Assembly (NCBI GenBank): GCA_950295325.1
Contig: OX485805.1
Span: 50,244,758-50,308,757 of the forward strand
Source: Polytrichum commune
Taxonomy: Eukaryota; Streptophyta; Polytrichopsida; Polytrichales; Polytrichaceae
Length of the DNA stretch: 64,000 nucleotides
Reading direction: 5' to 3'
A model generated the notes under the pieces. The model was not told the origin of the DNA, searched no databases, and saw only the letters and a list, made by a program, of their open reading frames with translations. Positions 12,180 through 43,830 of this stretch are shown here, in pieces; the first letter of the stretch is position 1, and each line of letters opens with the position of its first letter. The position numbers and the translations under genes were made by a program.

Positions 12180-17750
<5,571 letters not shown>

Positions 17751-21393: not shown

Positions 21394-22713
21394 GAAGAGA
21401 AGGAGGAAACCAGAGAGTATTAGTATTTCAAAACTAACACAACCTTGGTCGTTTGCCGGATATTTTCCCACATATTGTCCGGTATCCACCCGTCCGGTTT
21501 TCTGAAAAATTAACCTCCGCCTGCCCGCCTGCCCGACCGGGCTGCCGCTTGCCCGGAGCAAGGAAAGAATACCGTACTGTGCCAAGGGTCGGGCAGCAGG
21601 TGAGTATAAGGTTGGCACTCTCCGATGCCCTTTCCCGGATCGGGTATTGAAATCACGATACCGTCAGGGTATCTAGTTGCCAGGGTATTGAGAGGTAATA
21701 GTCTCAACGACGAGCTATATGTTGTGTTCAGTGAAGTTCTCCGGACACCAAAGAGGCGGGGTTTCGTTTCCTCTTCGATTTCAATCATTACTCCCTACCG
21801 GCATCTTCTGAAATTATGTGCACGTTCTCGGCGGTAGATTGATTAGTCTTTAGAAAGGTACGTGGTGATTTCTCTCGCTCAGGGTGAGGAGCAATTCATG
21901 CTTATGTGTTAATGTGGTTTAGGGTTTCAAGGGCTTCGAGTGTCGGAGAGGGCGACACGGGTTTTGAAGGGGAAGTTTCAGCTGCTAATTTGAACCTTCG
22001 GGGGATTTTACTATCCTAGTTGTGGAATTCGAGCTCCGCAGTGTGTTCGGTGCCTCGACAAGAGGTGGCGTGGAAAGAAGCACGAATAAGAGGGCGGAGT
22101 GTTTTTGGAGGACAGAGGGTTTATTTCCTCTTCAGTTGCAACCGTCCCTCGAGTCTCTTTGCACAAAATTATGAATCAATAATATCAATAATATCAATAA
22201 TAATAATGTTCATGTTTTGGACAGTATATTAGTGTGAGAAAGGTGCGGCGTGTTATTCCTTGGCTCGGGTTAAGGGAAATTCACGTGCTCGCGTTTTAGG
22301 GTTCACTGTGTGGAAGAAAACGAGCTGAGCTTTGGTTTGAGTGATGTCACTTGCTATCGCGAATTTGTGAGGGCCTGGTTGTATCGCTATCTTTTGAATT
22401 TAATCTCTGCCTTGTATTTGGAGTCCTTGACTAAGCGGTGGCGTGGGGAGCAAGAAACGGGGCGGACAATTCCCCCAAGCAGGGTTCTTAGACAGTTGTA
22501 GCCAACACATTTGCGTTTACTCTGTGCTTTTAAGGGTTCGATTGTTGAAATATCGTTGGCAGTAGTAGCAGGACGAGAGTGTTTATGGAGGTTCAAATGA
22601 ATTGGTGAGTTTGGCTGCGGAGTTGTTGTGAGTGTTTTGGCCAGATTTGTGCTTGCCGTATTTGATGAGTTGACGTGTCATTTTTGAGGCAGAAATTAGA
22701 GGTGTTCGTCAAG
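21394..22713 (+). promoter_or_regulatory. STA1 upstream region and probable 5' leader
   Basis: This GC-richer stretch precedes the STA1 start. A CCGG-rich block spans about 21450-21660. A good splice donor (AAG before GTACGT, at 21858) and an acceptor-like GAGGCAG ending at 22692 suggest a leader intron. That would remove the in-frame GTG upstream of the ATG. No TATA element is claimed. Confidence 0.35.
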
Positions 22714-25700
22714 ATGCATCTCTTCATAAGGAACCTCTCAGGACGCACTCTCTCTCTTGTGCTCCCTGGCTCTGCGGCGCCTACTGTTGGAACACTTCAA
22801 GAGTGCATTGAAGCACGGGAACACATACCTGCATGTCATTACCATATTGTGTATGTCAACAAGCATTTATCAGATGACGATTCTATGCTTGAAAGCTATG
22901 GTGTCAGCGATGGTTCCACTCTCTATATGGGTGGTAAACTCCTAGGGGGTATGCAAGCGCCGGTTGCCCCAAAACCTCGACTGGACTTTCTACACTCCAG
23001 GCCCCCAGCCAACTATGTGGCCGGATTAGGGCGTGGTGCTACAGGGTTTACAACCAGGTCTGATATTGGACCTGCAAGAGCAGCACCTGATTTGCCTGAT
23101 AGAACTGCCACTACTATCGGTGGAGCAGCAGCAGCAGCAGCCCCTGCAGGAGCTGGAAGAGGAAGAGGGAAAGGAGGGAACGAGGAGGAGGAGGAAGAGG
23201 CAGAGGAAAAAGGGTATGATGAGAATCAGAAGTTTGATGAATTTGAAGGGAATGATGTTGGATTATTTGCTTCTGGTGAGTATGATGAAGATGACAAGGA
23301 GGCTGATGTTGTATGGGAGAATATTGACAAGCGGATGGATTCAAGGAGGAAGGATAGGAGAGAAGCTCGCCTGAAGAAGGAAATTGAAAAGTATCGAGCT
23401 TCAAACCCAAAAATTACGGAACAGTTTGCAGACCTGAAACGGAAGCTTGTGACTTTGTCTGCAACTGAATGGGAAAGTATACCGGAAATTGGAGATTATT
23501 CTTTAAGAAATAAGAAGAAAAGGTTTGAGAGCTTCATTCCTGCGCCAGACACTCTGTTTGAACGTGCGAAACAAGAGCAGGAGCATGTGACAGCGTTGGA
23601 TCCTCGTTCCCGAGCTGCAGGTTTAGAGACACCTTATGGTCAGACACCTGTCACTGACCTTACGGCAGTGGGTGAAGGGAGGGGCACAGTTATGAAGCTG
23701 AAGCTTGATCGTCTCTCTGATTCTGTCAGTGGGTTGACTGTTGTAGACCCAAAGGGTTACCTCACTGATCTCAAGAGTATGAAAATTACAAGTGACGCAG
23801 AGATTTCGGACATCAAGAAGGCTAGGTTGTTGCTCAAGTCAGTCATCCAGACTAACCCAAAGCATGCTCCAGGGTGGATTGCAGCAGCTCGATTGGAAGA
23901 AGTTGCTGGGAAAATTCAGGCAGCCCGGAATTTTATTCAGCATGGTTGTGAAGAGTGCCCTATGAATGAGGATGTTTGGCTTGAGTCTTGCCGGTTAGCC
24001 ACTCCCAACAATGCGAAAGCGGTGTTGGCACAGGGGGTGAAGGTTATTCCTAACTCTGTGAAGTTGTGGATGCAAGCTGCGAAACTTGAAGGTGATGACA
24101 TTAGCAAGTCACGTGTGTTGCGCAAAGCTCTTGAACACATTCCAGACTCTGTCAGGCTATGGAAAGCAGTAGTGGAACTTGCAAATGAAGATGATGCTAG
24201 AATTCTTCTCTCTCGTGCTGTCGAGTGCTGCCCTCTTCATGTCGAGCTCTGGCTGGCACTTGCTCGTCTTGAAACATATGAGAATGCCAAGCGTGTCCTG
24301 AACAAGGCACGTGAAACATTGCCTACAGAGTCGAGCATTTGGATCACTGCTGCAAAGCTTGAAGAGGCCAATGGGAATTCAAGTATGGTGCTTAAAATTA
24401 TTGACAGAGCTGTGCGTGCTCTTCAACTACGTAGGGTTTCTATAGATAGAGAGGCGTGGATGAAGGAGGCAGAAGCAGCAGAAAGAGCTGGCTCAGTGGT
24501 AACTTGTCAAGCAATTGTCAACACGACTATTGGTGTTGGTGTAGAGGAAGAGGATAGAAAGAGAACGTGGGTTGCAGATGCTGATGAATGCAAGAAACGT
24601 GGCTCTATTGAAACAGCTCGAGCAATATATGCTCATGCTCTCACCTTTTTCCCAGGAAAGAAGAGTGTTTGGTTACGTGCTGCACAGCTGGAAAAGAGCC
24701 ATGGTACTTCCGATTCTCTGGACGCCATGTTGAAGAAAGCTGTTGGGTACTGCCCTCAGGCTGAAGTTCTGTGGCTTATGGGTGCCAAGGAGAAATGGTT
24801 AGCTGGTGATGTTCCCTCAGCTCGGGCTATTCTTCAAGAGGCTTATGCTGCTATACCAAACTCAGAAGAGATATGGTTAGCGGCCTTTAAACTGGAGTTT
24901 GAGAATCATGAACCGGAGCGAGCTAGAATGCTACTAGCAAAGGCCAGAGAAAGAGGAGGCACAGAGCGTGTCTGGATGAAGTCTGCCATAGTTGAACGAG
25001 AAATGGGGAATGCAAGCAAGGAGAAGGAATTGCTAGAAGGAGGACTTCAGAGATTTCCAGAGTTTCACAAGCTTTGGCTTATGCTTGGGCAGCTTGAAGA
25101 GCGCATTGGGCAGTCTGATGTGGCTCGTGAAGTCTATGAGCGGGCTTTACGCAAATGCCCCCACAGTACTCCTCTTTGGTTGTCTGCAGCTGCCTTGGAA
25201 GAGAGGGTTGGTGGTTTGAGTAAAGCACGTGCAGTACTCACAAAGGCCAGACTCAAGAATCCACACAATGCAGAACTGTGGCTGGCTGCCATCCGTGCAG
25301 AGGCTCATGCCGGGAACAAGAAGGAGGCAGAATCGTTGATGGCAAAGGCATTACAAGACTGTGCCTCCAGTGGACGCCTTTGGGCTGAGGCTATTGATAT
25401 GGCGCCACGGCCACAACGCAAGTCAAAGAGTGTCGATGCTCTTAAACGCTGTGACCAGGATCCGCATGTCATTGCCGCTGTTGCAAAGCTATTCTGGCAG
25501 GATCGTAAGGTAGACAAAGCAAGAAATTGGCTCAACCGGGCTGTGACACTAGCACCTGATATTGGTGACTTCTGGGCACAGCTGTACAAGTTTGAGTTGC
25601 AACATGGAGGTGAGGACCACCAACACGATGTCTTACAGAGATGTCTGGCTGCGGAACCCCGACATGGCGAGAAGTGGACTAAATGCTCCAAAGCAGTGGA

Positions 25701-25776
25701 GAATGCACATTTGCCAACAGATGAGATTTTGAAGAAGCTAGTATTAGCATACTCAAAGGATGAAGCAGAGATATGA
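22714..25776 (+). CDS. STA1: PRP6-type U4/U6.U5 tri-snRNP splicing factor, intronless
   Basis: This is the plant homologue of yeast Prp6 and human PRPF6, which bridges U5 and U4/U6 in the spliceosome. Reading from ATG 22714 gives 1,020 residues, close to Arabidopsis STABILIZED1. Residues 1-79 form a ubiquitin-like region ending LLGG. The PRP1 N-terminal domain follows, with [28 protein letters not shown] and later [18 protein letters not shown]. From about residue 370 to the C-terminus it is a solenoid of HAT/TPR-like helical repeats with recurring W-x-x-A/L-x-x-L-E patterns. The frame also opens 13 codons upstream at a GTG, but ATG 22714 is better. It directly precedes the conserved ubiquitin-like start, and a likely leader-intron acceptor lies just before it. 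The 3.1-kb frame has no intron and no break. It is expected to be nuclear and broadly expressed. Confidence 0.97.
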
Positions 25777-27561: not shown

Positions 27562-30500
27562 TTAATTGGGATGCAGATTCTTGGCCATGTTGATGAAATT
27601 CTGTGTGGAACATTGTCGGAGTTTCTCACCGAATAGAGCACCCGCACAAGCTGGCATCACTAAGTTGAGTATATGTGTAGGTGCAACTGGGGGGTTCATG
27701 GCTTTGTCCCCATACATTGGTGGTCTCTCTGTTGCACCCGGAAGTATGAACTCATGAAATGTGGTTCCGTTCACAAAGAGATTGTTGGAGCTCAAGATTG
27801 AAGCGCTTTGGTCAAAGTTTGTACCCACTCCTGCAAACCATGGTGTGACTTCCACCCTACGACTTGCCACAAATGCATTGTTTTCGGATATGATTTTACC
27901 ATGAACTCGGGCACCTAAAGCATAGTACCCCCAGTTTGTGTAGAAATTGTTGAGCACATGGCAATGCCCCCACCTGTGTCACAGTGAGCAATACAAATCA
28001 GACATAATATGTGATGAAGAGATGCTATATTATGTCGACATGAATAAATATTGAGGTGAACTTCTGTGAGCACAAAATGGGTGGCCACAGAAATGACCAT
28101 TCTAAAGTAAAGATGATCTAGTAAGATATTCCAAGTGATCTCTGAGTATGGAAGTGAGGCTCATCTTCAATGTCAGCACAATCACTCTAGGGAGTGCTGT
28201 ATGTTCCATGCTATGATTTGCGAAACCTTTAAGTTTTGAAGCTTTTTGGGAAGCAGATCAAACTTACGAGATATTGTTTGTGTACTACTCAATAATTTGG
28301 AAGGAACTTATCAAGAAAAATACTTGTGAACTTGTTTTGTATCTAGCTGCAAAGTTTTAATAACAATGACAGAATGTTTGGCAATGCTACCAACCCAATA
28401 GAAAATCTCCAATACAGGTAGAAAATTTCCAATAGAAAGTTTCTAGTTATGCACATTAATTATAGAGGACTCACATGCATGTCCCTAAATCTTGGATTGG
28501 ACTAAGTTGGTGCACCCATCCTAGTATGACAAGCTAAAAATCCGTTTATTTTAATTTATCTAAAAAATAAAATCCAACACCAGTCGTTTAGCATGTAGCT
28601 TTAAGCCTTTAAAGAACTTGGCTGACTTTAGGGAACCCACCTGGAGTTTGATCTGAAGAAGTTATGGATAACTCTAAAGTGCACTAGATGGGCAACTTGA
28701 AAGGTCACATAGCATTACTCAATGCCTTCATGGTGTTTTGTGGGCCATGGTTGAGATTCTAGAATATTCCATTAGTTATAGTACGAACTCACAAAATATT
28801 TTAGAATCTTAGCCACGGCCCACAAAACACCATAAAGACATTGAGTAACGTTATGCACCTTTGACATTAATTCAAGAAAATATTCATAATGTATTGAAAT
28901 TGACCTGCAATGTGGCATTCTCTGCATGGAGTCCTTGAACCAATTTCTATATACTGTAACTCTCATGTCTTCATCTTCTTTATCATTGTCCGAAGCTCCG
29001 AGTAACATGTTGAAATTGAAGTTTGAGAGATGTGAATTTGATATTGTTACGTCCGTGGATCCTTGTAAAACTGACACCAATCCTAGCTTCGCTTCAAATG
29101 AGGTGACATGGTCCACCCAAATTTTGGTAGAGCCCGCAAATATGTGGACTGTGTCACTCTCACCAAGTGCGCTCACTTGAATGTTATGAAGGATGACATT
29201 TGCTATACCGCACAACACTAGATTTCGGCCTGTAGTTCAAATAAAGAGATGAAAATGAGATTAATTAGTGTGTGATGAGCTTTTTAACATGCATAATGAT
29301 AATGATAATAGTACTTAAAATGCCACAATGACCTAATATACTGAAGCATTGTTTTTGGAGAGTTTTTGATGGATATTGAGAGTTTTTTTTACATTATAAT
29401 TGTACTAAATTCAAGGGATTGAAGTGAATATATATATATATATATATATACACATACTTTTTTTCCAACCATACATGTGGCATGTTTTAGGAGGACCTAT
29501 TGGATATGTGGGTTGAGATCTAATTGGGCAACATTGAAGCTTATTTGGGGGGATGGAAAATTTAACAAGTTGCATGTCAGTTTCTTAAAATTTGACAAAC
29601 CCTATTGGGTCTTAGTGGATGACTATCTTGTTTACTTGAAAAAAATTTAGCGTCATTCCACCCTAATGAGATTTTTTCTAATAATTTTTTTTAAATGAGA
29701 TTTCTTTATTAATGTTGCAATGCTGGATTCCTAACACAAAACTCAAAATTGATGGCACATTATTTGTTGGTCGTAAGGATCCCATTAAATTAGGAAATGC
29801 TCCTACACTGATTATGCCCAAAAACCTCCCCAAACGTTGGCTTGGAGATCATTGATGTATAGCTAAAACTGTGGACCAATTTGGGCTCTTTGTTATATTT
29901 ATCTAGGCTACCTCATATCAGCTTCGTGAACAAACATGTCCACCCATGGTATTTTGGGGTTGACCTCGAGCTTATTTCCACAAAAATACATGTGAATGGA
30001 CTATAGACTACGAAAAAATAATAAAAAGTTGATCAAATCATCATGATTTCGAGGCTGTTGTCTTCTATATTTACAGTAAATAGATCACATGGCATTTTCC
30101 AACCTGTTATTGTTACATTGTATCCACGACCGTCGATTGTTGTTTTGCTTTTCAACCAAAGCATGTCTTGAAGGACAATAATGAGGTTGTGTGAGAATGT
30201 TATCCAAACACCACCCGTTGTTGAGCCACCGAGATTGACACCATGACGCAATGAGCCCATCGAAGGGTTTTTTGGGTCGTCTTCGTCGTTAGTCACGACA
30301 TAGGATCTTCCGTGTAAACCACCCGTTACGCCATATGCAAAACCGTAAGCACAACTTGGCAATCGTCTACCTTTCCCGCAGATGGAGAAAGGACAAATCG
30401 TTGGGTCGATTGCAGTGCATGCTGGCGAATTCTCCTCATTTGCTACAAACAATCAATAAACAAAGCTTGAGAATTCAAGTAAAACATATCTAACATAGAA

Positions 30501-31462
30501 TGTGAACTATCCTCTCCAGTTATTAATAACCATGGTAATCTTTTTGGGAGCTTTTTTGGGGGCCTTTTGGCTCTAGAGGTGCATACAATGTTGATGTGAG
30601 CCATTGCCTCAATTCGAGTCTTGGTTGGATTTTACAGCTTGAGCTAAGTTTATCACGACATGTTGATGCAGTCAAACAATAGATGAACTTAGAATGAGTA
30701 TGGTGCGTTGGTGTGAGTGAATATCATGGGTCGTTTCTTATTTATACGAATGGGTACCAAAGTTTTTAGATTGATTTAGAGTTTCACATACTTGGAGAAG
30801 CCTTTGGATCTTTTGGATTCGAAATGGATACATTTTGTAGGCTATCAATCAAACTTTTGGTTTGAATAATATTGGCAAACGCAAAGCTTGTTTGTAGTTG
30901 TCTAAGCATGACTCGAACTTTTGACAAGATATGTGTGATTAGTTGCATCTTTGAGGCTGAATATGTCACCTGCAATTCACATAAGTCCATCCAATCTTAG
31001 GATTCGAAGAGAGACTATTGTGCAAGCATTACAAATATTTGATGGTAAATTGCATTATTATCAATATATTTACATTGGAGGTCAAAGTTGGGCAAGTTGT
31101 GAGTTGCATACATTTCGAAACGAGATGCTGCTACCGCATTCAAGAAGAGTTTGTTGTGCGCTTGACAATACTTCCATAGATTCGAGCAATGATGTTAGTC
31201 GTAAATGGTTGGCAATCAAGCTTAATTTTTTATTGCTATCGTCTAGACGCTTGGCACAATCTCCTTCAAGAATTTCCCCCATCGTGGACGCACGTTGTAG
31301 ATTGGTTATTATCTTCTCAAGGGCATTCAAAGTGTGCATAAACTCACTTGTTTGTGGTGTGTTTGTAGTTTGTGCATCCAAAAAGTACACTCTGCTCAAT
31401 AGCATTAATCCAAAGCATATCAAAGTAGACATTGCCATTGGGTGTTGTGAAACTCTCAACAT
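27562..31462 (-). CDS. Pectate lyase-like protein (PL1), 5 exons
   Basis: Pectate lyases (family PL1) cleave demethylated pectin by beta-elimination in the wall. Exons read on the minus strand are 31462-31112, 30969-30792, 30442-30104, 29229-28905 and 27973-27562. All are GT-AG and phases agree, giving 534 residues. The first ATG precedes a hydrophobic signal-like segment (about residues 11-28). Residues 30-150 are helical, with a DC...L-S-S-A-Q-Q-T-L-L-E-C pattern resembling a pectin methylesterase inhibitor domain. The parallel beta-helix part has GRGYNVTITG, WVDH (327-330), QGST (345-348), LLGASD (365-370), RMPHCR (393-398) and NNFYTNW. The usual D-G-L-V-D calcium-binding motif reads L-G-L-V-S at 338-342, so both aspartates are missing. 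The catalytic-region arginines at 393 and 398 are kept. It may be a non-catalytic or altered paralogue. Confidence 0.88.
28700..28865. repeat. Long imperfect hairpin in pectate lyase intron 4
   Basis: Two inverted arms of about 65 bp (about 28700-28767 and 28793-28862) are separated by about 25 bp. Both arms contain ATGGTGTTTTGTGGGCC, or its complement. The hairpin lies wholly inside the intron between exons 4 and 5. It may be a small fold-back transposon. Confidence 0.85.
29421..29450. repeat. (TA)n microsatellite in pectate lyase intron 3
   Basis: A run of alternating T and A lies within the intron between exons 3 and 4. Confidence 0.9.
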
Positions 31463-32288
31463 TCTCAATCTAATGGATTATGAATATGTTTGCCAAAAAA
31501 TAATATGAAGTTGCACTACATAATCTAGTTGTTCATCATCGCTCTAAATTGCGAGAGTTGTGAAAAGGCTATCAAGAAACTTCTTGACTTCAAACGTGAC
31601 TTCGTTGGCAAATCAAGTGGAAACCATTCATTTGATTCGCACGAATCACGGTAATCACGTGATTTGTGTGACACTTTATGGACTTCATTCCATGTCAATG
31701 GATGCTCATGCGTTATTGGGTCATTCTCCAACCAATTTCAAATCTCTATACCTCCTTTTAGTTTGAGACTTTTTGATGGGATAGAATTATGTGATTAAAA
31801 TGATATATGCAATTTTCTTTTGAGAGCAAGGCATATGGTGAAAACAAGATTACTTCTTCCAAAATCATGGTCAAAATCATGTGTATGGTACAAAACAATT
31901 AGTAATCCTTCTAAAGCCATGTCCAATGTCTTGGGATACAGGGTCCATGAAAATAAGTAGAAATAAAAAACAATGAACATATTATCAAATAGTGAGTACA
32001 AAGAGGCTTTAAAATTTTTCACCCTCCACACTTACTTAATTTTGAGACCCAATTTCAAAAAAATTATTGCAACCATTTCATGTAAATTTGTGTCACTAGT
32101 TTGTAGTGATTTTCAGTATTACCATTTCAACTCTCTATCGGCCATTCACCTTGTGTACCCATACCTCACATTTGCCACAACCGTTCACATCTGTAAGTCG
32201 GCCACTATTTGGTATCTTTCACATCTTTCACATCTGGTGGCCTTTAATTTCCAAACAATTATCATGTCCATTTACAACCATTCACATC
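31463..32288. other. Upstream region of the pectate lyase gene
   Basis: This AT-rich stretch must hold the promoter of the minus-strand gene. No defined element was recognised and no other gene is seen. Confidence 0.4.
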
Positions 32289-41279: not shown

Positions 41280-43830
41280 CACCATGGGCACAAGGGGGAC
41301 CCCGGAGTGACACCCGGGACTTGTGGCGCCGTTGGTGTCAGCCATAAACCCCCACCCTTATGCGTTGTAGTCCGGATGGGAGCCTATGGCTCACACTCAC
41401 TGCTCACTGTTCACCAACCCTTTGGCATGTGTGGAGTTTTCCCAGATGTCACACAAAACTCACAACTTTCATTCAATAGCACAAGGTACAAGCATTAAGA
41501 AATGCTCTTCCTAATCTAAGTTCCCATACCCACTAGCCCACGCTTTGGCTCATCAAGCTAAGCTTGACCTACATAATCTTAGACTATAAGCACTACGTAT
41601 TATGGCCAAGAGCCAAGACCTCAAATAACAACCAATTCCTTAATCGTTGCTAAAATCCTACTTAGCCTAGCCTAACCTTCCAATTAACCCCCAACACAAG
41701 CAACTCCATTCTCCTTAGTGTATGGGTTGGAGGCTACACTACCCATAGAATTCGAAGTTGAGTCGTTGCGGGTCGCCGTGAAGTCACGTCTCACAGATAG
41801 TCAGTCGTTAAGGAATCGACTGACAACATTGGAGGAGCCTGATGAAAGGAGAAGGATGGCAGCACGACACATCGAAGCCATCCAAAGGCGGAGAAAAATA
41901 ACCTTCGACAAGAAACACAAAAAGAGAGCACTAAGCCTAGGTATGATGGTGATGATTCAAGATGCTAGGAAACTTGACTTTCCGGGAAAGTTTGATGCAG
42001 TTTGGTTGGGGCCTTATCTTGTTCGGGAAGCATTCCCAAACAACTCGTTGCAATTGGAAACATTAAATGGGGAGAGCTTCCCAACACGTACGGCAAGCAG
42101 TCGATGTAAGGAATATCGGGCATGACTTGCTTGCCTGCGAAGCGAGAGATTCTGGGCCTATCCCCTGATGGTCGCCAGTTATGTGAGCCCCAATTATCGT
42201 TCACATGTGTTTTTAATTTTGCAAAACATTAAAACTTAGGTTTACCACTGCACTGAATGCTAGAACAGGTAATAAAGGGTTATGTTCTTTCGTATGGGTT
42301 GGAGTTGAATTAAGGCTTGGTAGTGAGTTAACAAGTGCTAAAGGCTAGGGAGAATTAATCTAGGACTTAATAGTGGGTGGTTGGGCTTAGTGTTAGAGGG
42401 TTCAATTGATTATTAAGGGGTTAGGCCTTAGGCACGTAAGTATGCCGGCGGCTGGGTTTTATTGACCACATTAGGATTGAGTAGTGATTGTTTTGAGGGA
42501 GGGCCCATGGGACCCTAGAGGAATGCGGGCTCGGTACTAGCAGGTGTTGGGTTGGCGGCTCGGCCAGCAGCTGCTCGTTGGGGAGGAGGAGACTAGGCAA
42601 AGACCGAAGGCGGAGCGGCGCGGCAACCTCCTCAGGCTGCTAAGGGTCTGAATGCTGGAGACCGAATTCGGCAAGGAACTGCGTATCAGCGAGAGATGGC
42701 ATTAGCCAGTGGCTGAGAGGGTGAGCTGGAGAATCCTCACATTGCTTGAAACCCCACATTGAGTCTGGGGCAACAAGCTGCGTTTGTCAGTCTCTGGGAA
42801 TCTGGAAGCCCCCCTGAATCTCTTTGAATTCCCGAATCTTAACTCGAAAAGTGTAAGGCCAGTGGAGGAATTGAGGGGCGGCTCGGAATGAGCATTGCAC
42901 CATTGCGGGGCTACGGGCTAGGAGCAGTGATCACAGTGAATTGGGCATCGGAGCACAACTCAGATTGATTGAAGGATAATGCGAGGAAGAAGAGGAGGCA
43001 GGTGGGGCTCACCTGTGGGTTCAGAACATTGACTGTGGCATCTGCGAAATCAATTGTCACCGAACGAGTATACATTAGATTGCGGGGGCTCAACAAGGCG
43101 TGGGTTCTGGTAGCCCAGTTGTTGGTATGGAATCTATGAAGAGCTGAGCTTGCAGGGTGATCTGAAGCCTTGACTCAGAATCAAGGCACCCTGGGACGAA
43201 TTTTGATAAGGATTGATCTGAGGAAGGATTAATGTGGGCGCCAAGGGCCAGGGAGAGGGTCTGCTGGCGAAGGAGGCTAGGCAGAGTCCGAGACGGGTGA
43301 TACAAAACATTCAACCCTGGAGGTCCAGCAGAGGGGGTTGAGGCAGGGCCGAACTAACGGCGAGCAATTGAAGAGGGACTGGTCGACCAGCCGACAGCAA
43401 TAGGGCCTTGGGGTTACCGAGTTGGGTTGTGGTAACCAACCTGGTTATATGGGCCTTGATAATTTGGTATTTAGGAGGAGTAGGCATTGCTCACCACGAG
43501 TGTGAGTAGTAGTGCTTCCATTTCATTAGGAGATGGGTTAGTAGTTAGGATAGTTTTAACTAGAGGGATTTTTGGGTTTTAAATGTGTGTGTAGAGTTCC
43601 ATTAGGGCACTTGGGTTAATCGTGACCATAGGGTGAATGAGTGTTTTTTCAACACTTGTAACCTCGTGTAATTGAATAAAAAGTATGTGTTGGGAATTGT
43701 GTTGCGGAGGCATCGAGTATTGAACTAAGGGCTAAGGGAAGCTAGCAAGTGCATGTGAGCCACATGCTCTCACCCGGACCACGACGCTTAAGGGTGGGGG
43801 TTTGTGTATTCTATAATGCCACCTCCGACC
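41280..43830. mobile_element. Fossil Ty3/gypsy LTR retrotransposon cluster
   Basis: An integrase C-terminal portion lies at about 41706-42125 (+), with the LVYGLEA and WLGPY signatures of plant gypsy elements. It is followed at about 42183 by what looks like the start of a long terminal repeat. A poly(A)-signal-like GAATAAAAAG lies near 43675. A segment at about 41340-41400 is the inverse of about 43745-43810, suggesting a second, oppositely oriented LTR piece. The cluster is broken, lacks gag, protease, reverse transcriptase and RNase H, and appears old. Confidence 0.7.

Follow-up and report, generated by a model that had tools for sequence, protein, structure and literature searches.

When a gene of polysaccharide lyase family 1 (PL1) has lost residues that bind the catalytic calcium, does it still encode a pectate lyase, and if not, what might its product do? 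The question is raised by a gene of Polytrichum commune, found at positions 27562-31462 on the minus strand of a 64,000-nucleotide stretch of contig OX485805.1 (assembly GCA_950295325.1, positions 50,244,758 to 50,308,757), hereafter the window. The gene structure is intact and open, with five exons and four GT..AG introns whose phases all match, and it encodes 534 residues followed by a stop codon. Its product is proposed here, with confidence evenly balanced, to be a secreted protein of the PL1 fold that would be no calcium-dependent pectate lyase and would bind uncharged (methyl-esterified) pectin, perhaps cleaving it.

The PL1 domain and its altered calcium site

The second half of the product is, on the profile evidence, a PL1 domain. 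A pectate lyase-like gene had been described from the letters alone, and the profile search of the whole product bears this out with a match to PF00544 at residues 272-432 (E 4.1e-23; 82.6 bits against a curated cut-off of 24; Pfam), besides a TIG match that falls below its own cut-off (E 0.013). The best solved relative is Jun a 1 (E 7.8e-39; 37% identity over 274 positions), followed by VexL (6fi2; E 1.2e-32) and then by bacterial pectate lyases, and the fungal pectin lyase 1QCX gives a weak sequence match (E 3.7e-6). By homology to these proteins, the domain would take the PL1 fold.

In PL1 pectate lyases, calcium is described as neutralising the galacturonate carboxylate while an arginine acts as the base, and Asp223 and Asp227 (primary calcium) together with Lys247 and Arg284 (substrate) are listed as highly conserved (PMC10992409). 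Seven active-site positions were compared between this gene, VexL, Jun a 1 and the 17 further PL1 loci detected in the genome; across these seven, the present gene reads Glu, Asp, Leu, Ser, Phe, Arg and Arg. In the phmmer matches to 2nzm, residue 339 pairs with 224, 341 with 226 and 396 with 282, pairings taken from the ends of the matches rather than from a printed alignment with 2nzm. Hence, Leu338 and Ser342 occupy the positions of Asp223 and Asp227 of Bacillus subtilis pectate lyase, and Arg393 and Arg398 equal positions 279 and 284. The pairing of Phe362 with 247 assumes no preceding gap, an assumption supported by the alignment to Jun a 1 and the paralogues, which runs without gaps.

The sequence-only reading had already pointed out that LGLVS stands for DGLVD, and this loss of both motif aspartates holds in the alignments made. 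The WVDH and RMPHCR (residues 393-398) motifs are retained, as it had also stated. Beyond that reading, the substrate lysine is lost, the third ligand has become Glu313, the fourth is kept as Asp315, and some 20 residues are missing from the loop that precedes the calcium site in ordinary plant PL1s; they are likewise absent from VexL and from the paralogue L053. According to the alignment, Lys337 lies directly before the lost aspartate. Judged by the residues of a calcium-dependent PL1 pectate lyase, the gene lacks Asp223, Asp227 and Lys247 and has Arg279 and Arg284.

These substitutions (Leu and Ser for two aspartates, Phe for the lysine, Glu for a third aspartate) would neutralise the calcium and galacturonate-carboxylate site of the PL1 parallel beta-helix, and a protein with its site so neutralised would not be a calcium-dependent pectate lyase. 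Its most likely ligand would be cell-wall pectin in the uncharged, methyl-esterified form. Cleavage without calcium may be possible as well, since one aspartate remains along with the two catalytic arginines. The joint loss of the calcium aspartates and the lysine, with the arginines kept, fits a shift to an uncharged substrate.

Exceptions at the calcium site have been reported in poplar. The 30 PL1 proteins compared there conserve most of their calcium residues, with exceptions in group V; in a motif search, PtPL1-10 and group V lacked the motif that carries the first two of these residues, and PtPL1-7 lacked that of the last two (PMC5487484). The latter protein may be a precedent. Poplar group V has Arg for His at a substrate-binding residue, and its three members are without a predicted signal peptide (PMC5487484). 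In the PL1s of peach, the four aspartates are described as conserved (PMC8990770). Among the matches listed in the open-licence literature, there was no plain account of a plant PL1 lacking these aspartates; the papers listed for inactive PL1 included none on a plant PL1 by title, and those listed for VexL and Vi antigen or polysaccharide included none on VexL, judged by title and the start of the abstract.

Kinship of the domain and losses in other loci

The equivalents of Asp223 and Asp227 are both present in 16 of the 17 other PL1 loci and are lost in L052, so that across these alignments the aspartate loss is not a family-wide wobble. The first aspartate of DGD is kept in all 17, and L045 and L052 have lost both the second aspartate of DGD and the substrate lysine. 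All 16 loci that cover the first arginine keep it, and for the second the figure is 15 of 16, L055 having His. L055 and L050 appear to be incomplete or broken loci, with a TAG within one L055 match and an exon missing from the L050 stitch.

L052 (C5:493000-501500) reads DGS and TTNLIS, has Met for the lysine and retains both arginines. Likewise, L045 (C5:32457000-32464500) has DGT for DGD and, at a splice junction, Met for the lysine (Gln in the raw stitch, Met after splicing), with its motif aspartates and arginines kept. Both gene models are our own stitches, and the recurrence was noticed post hoc, after the data had been viewed. Both arginines are present in all three eroded genes. On the masked tree described below, the eroded state requires three changes, and L045 and L052 as sisters are rejected (p 0.028); erosion in these two loci is similar to, and apparently independent of, that in the present gene.

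The domain is kin to plant PL1s. In a 34-row tree, it joins 16 paralogues and Jun a 1 at 98/93, the latter group without this gene standing at 83/88. A 25-row tree, in which six active-site columns were masked in all rows except five bacterial loci, has the same topology (94/87 and 86/94). In approximately unbiased (AU) tests, neither the placement of the gene inside its own-genome group with Jun a 1 outside nor its grouping with L053 is rejected (p 0.095 for each), and holding it with the VexL clade gives p 0.0502. The gene would best be placed as a long-branched sister of the ordinary plant PL1s, its exact position being unsure. A published phylogeny that includes moss describes at least two ancestral PL1 genes (PMC4108027).

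Intron positions, with those of the paralogues taken as joined by our own script, agree with a plant descent of the domain. The phase-1 intron in codon 290 lies in the same codon as an intron of L051 and about three codons from one of L052. The intron in codon 398 is of phase 2, and 12 of the 17 paralogues have an intron of this phase two codons away. A phase-0 intron at codon 363, present in 11 of the 17, is missing here. A recent transfer from bacteria was considered and rejected, because introns and trees put the domain with plant PL1s. Many genomes of Achromobacter, and some of Bordetella and related bacteria, carry members of the VexL-like PL1 group (51 PL1 loci; many of L072-L106), and seven VexL-like loci form one clade with a Rhizobiales member, L102 (100/100).

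Each known relative shares some features with the gene and differs in others. Jun a 1-type plant PL1s have in common with it the PL1 domain, WVDH, RMPxCR and matching or near-matching introns, whereas here two calcium aspartates, the lysine and the loop are lacking, and the gene stands outside them in the trees on a long branch. L053, which reads WVDR and probably belongs to group V of plant PL1s, also has no long loop before the calcium site but retains all seven active-site residues. VexL and its Achromobacter and Bordetella relatives resemble the gene in their short loop and partly eroded calcium site; however, VexL erodes other residues, and its group is bacterial and not sister to the gene in the trees. 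The fungal pectin lyases, typified by 1QCX, are of the same family and seemingly need no calcium, with an arginine as base (PMC10992409), whereas for the arginine that replaces calcium in 1QCX the gene has, by sequence position, a candidate counterpart such as Lys337.

Gene model and N-terminal stretch

The coordinates of the exons and motifs are collected in Table 1. Exons 1 and 2 are supported by their in-phase open frame, by their splice sites and by the hydrophobic start of the product, which peaks at residues 11-23. Codon usage gives no support for these two exons (-0.19 and -0.32, where 285 open stretches give a mean by chance of -0.16 with a standard deviation of 0.20) and hardly any for exons 3-5 (-0.05 to 0.00 against 0.20-0.63 in 18 PL1 and pectin methylesterase inhibitor (PMEI) stretches). 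The coding frame is outscored in each of exons 1-3 by another forward frame, although that frame contains stops. The test is weak, because the control, a splicing-factor gene of the window, also scores low (only -0.06). Antisense to exon 1, an open frame of 189 codons runs on the plus strand (window 30939-31508).

Table 1. Window coordinates of the exons and sequence motifs of the PL1-type gene (residue equivalents in B. subtilis Pel numbering).
Feature	Window position	Strand	Description and basis
Exon 1	31112..31462	-	Signal-peptide-like hydrophobic start (residues 1-30), helix-rich N-terminal stretch to residue 117; open frame, donor GTATGC
Exon 2	30792..30969	-	Residues 118-176, remainder of N-terminal stretch; in phase, acceptor TTGCAG, donor GTATGT
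Exon 3	30104..30442	-	Residues 177-289, PL1 domain begins; aligns with the genome's other PL1 loci and Jun a 1
Exon 4	28905..29229	-	Residues 290-397, PL1 core with altered calcium site; lies in PF00544 match
Exon 5	27562..27973	-	Residues 398-534 and stop codon; frame, splice site, alignment with PL1 paralogues
Cys69-Cys109 stretch, read as PMEI-like	31136..31258	-	Spacing 40, within the PMEI range of 40-50; profile tests fail
ESD replacing DGD	29153..29161	-	Residues 313-315; Glu313 substitutes one ligand, Asp315 kept
WVDH	29108..29119	-	Residues 327-330, kept
LGLVS replacing DGLVD	29072..29086	-	Residues 338-342; Leu338 = Asp223, Ser342 = Asp227
Phe362	29012..29014	-	Substitutes the substrate-binding lysine (Lys247)
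Arg393	28919..28921	-	Kept; counterpart of Arg279

A PMEI-like pattern had been seen in the N-terminal residues. As letters the pattern is real (DC at residues 68-69, not 67-68; LSSAQQTLLEC at 99-109), but at the sensitivity of the searches made it is not homology. The product has no match to PMEI (PF04043) up to E 10 in Pfam, and its first 176 residues have just two unrelated matches, below cut-off (E 0.07). The 408-Mb genome holds at least 14 PMEI domains over the Pfam cut-off. Against a profile of 13 of these same-genome domains, the mature N-terminus scores 3.2 bits (2.6 with the signal-like start), compared with 64.4-172.5 bits for left-out PMEIs; among 199 scored shuffles, 11 do at least as well as the mature stretch. 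Profiles built from two PMEIs (spacing 40 or 47) do not set the stretch apart either, 192 of 475 and 201 of 481 scored shuffles doing equally well, and hhalign against PMEI gives probabilities of 0.14% and 0.19%. Four cysteines, with a proline between the first two, are invariant in the 13 domains; residues 31-176 hold only Cys69 and Cys109, and the first cysteine pair with its proline is absent.

A PMEI origin of the N-terminus was rejected by Pfam, the own-genome profile, the two sub-profiles and hhalign alike. Rather, the stretch is probably a lineage-specific helical extension; no second copy of it was found in the genome (best non-self match E 2.5). PMEI-PME proteins, in which the inhibitor domain precedes a pectin methylesterase, are plant pectin proteins with a helical N-terminal stretch. 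They share with the gene the Cys-Cys spacing, whereas here a PMEI profile match is lacking and a lyase domain takes the place of the esterase. Among the papers listed for PMEI domains fused to pectate lyases, none concerned such a fusion, judged by title and the start of the abstract.

Elsewhere in the window, the plus strand carries a PRP6-type splicing factor in a single open frame (22669-25776; PRP1_N, HAT-type repeats and a ubiquitin-like start), exons of a pyridine nucleotide-disulphide oxidoreductase (14765-15755; Pfam match from the first exon, the only one scanned) and a frame that by eye resembles a fragment of a retrotransposon polyprotein (41688-42125; no Pfam match at E 0.001).

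Binding or cleavage of uncharged pectin

That the product may be a binding protein or a calcium-independent variant, as first suggested from the letters, is plausible, the calcium ligands of its PL1 domain being lost. Secretion, substrate, and binding or cleavage are predicted from sequence, and several points weigh against the proposal of a secreted pectin-binding protein. As exons 1 and 2 have no codon-usage support, secretion depends on an unproved exon. The two kept arginines suit an active enzyme as well as they suit a binder, and Asp315 and Glu313 might still form a weak calcium site. The folded fragments are uninformative. Exon 1 (residues 31-117), modelled alone as a single sequence, gave one long helix (predicted local distance difference test score, pLDDT, 91.8; predicted template modelling score, pTM, 0.54), and the other four models reached a pLDDT of 61-72, so that the helix is not informative. 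Exon 4, folded with four bacterial relatives, reached a pLDDT of 64.8; a Foldseek search with this model gave no match at E <=0.001 among 160, the best being VexL (E 0.012), and among the best 50 of these 160 matches, PL1 lyases stood lower, at probabilities up to 0.99, amid unrelated matches.

Tentatively, the product may instead be an active, calcium-independent PL1 lyase on methyl-esterified pectin, like the fungal pectin lyases, with a basic residue such as Lys337 in place of calcium. In 1QCX, Arg176 is named as the neutraliser and Arg236 as the base, and pectin lyases are seemingly calcium-free because their substrate is neutral (PMC10992409). Arg393 and Arg398 are kept and Lys337 immediately precedes the lost aspartate, but Lys337 is a candidate from its place in the sequence only. 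In VexL, which the title of entry 6fi2 calls a periplasmic depolymerase, three of the ligand positions are occupied by Leu, Gln and Asn. However, its pattern is opposite to that of this gene, the lysine being present and the second arginine replaced by Gln, and the grouping with its clade is borderline disfavoured. A wider version of this account is unlikely: an ancient land-plant PL1 lineage, which diverged ahead of the conifer-type pectate lyases and has no long loop, would have turned into a pectin lyase (EC 4.2.2.10) that needs no calcium and acts on methyl-esterified pectin, and at least two more genes (L052 and L045) would have done likewise independently, losing calcium ligands and lysine and keeping the arginine pair.

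Decay of the gene under relaxed selection, with its active site eroding, is improbable. Its end branch is long (1.6 changes per column), and the GC content at third codon positions is 0.31-0.46 by exon, below the 0.51-0.81 of the 18 sampled PL1 and PMEI stretches. However, the five exons stay open across 534 codons with in-phase introns, and of the 75 columns conserved at >=95% in 16 ordinary paralogues, this gene keeps 46, compared with 58 in Jun a 1 and 35 in VexL, uncovered columns being scored as lost (L053 retains 42 of the 54 that it covers). Neutral drift would not leave that at the 32-40% identity that the domain shows to the genome's paralogues, and the kept columns together with the open frame argue that selection has maintained the PL1 domain. 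An ordinary calcium-dependent pectate lyase with ligands drawn from Glu313, Asp315 and Glu335, all near the site in sequence, is a shade less credible again, two ligands and the substrate lysine being lost. That the product is a genuine PMEI-PL1 fusion whose inhibitor domain has diverged strongly is barely credible, for the spacing of 40, which fits the third and fourth PMEI cysteines, the PMEI-resembling LS.A with a Cys ten residues after its Leu, and the predicted helicity of exon 1 stand against the failed profile tests and the missing first cysteine pair.

Should plants maintain intact PL1 genes that have no calcium site, some annotated pectate lyases are not pectate lyases, and counts of such genes put lyase capacity too high. 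A plant PL1 that cleaves without calcium or binds pectin, if true, would act on esterified pectin without a prior esterase, and the idea can be tested because calcium ligands and lysine have been lost jointly in three genes.

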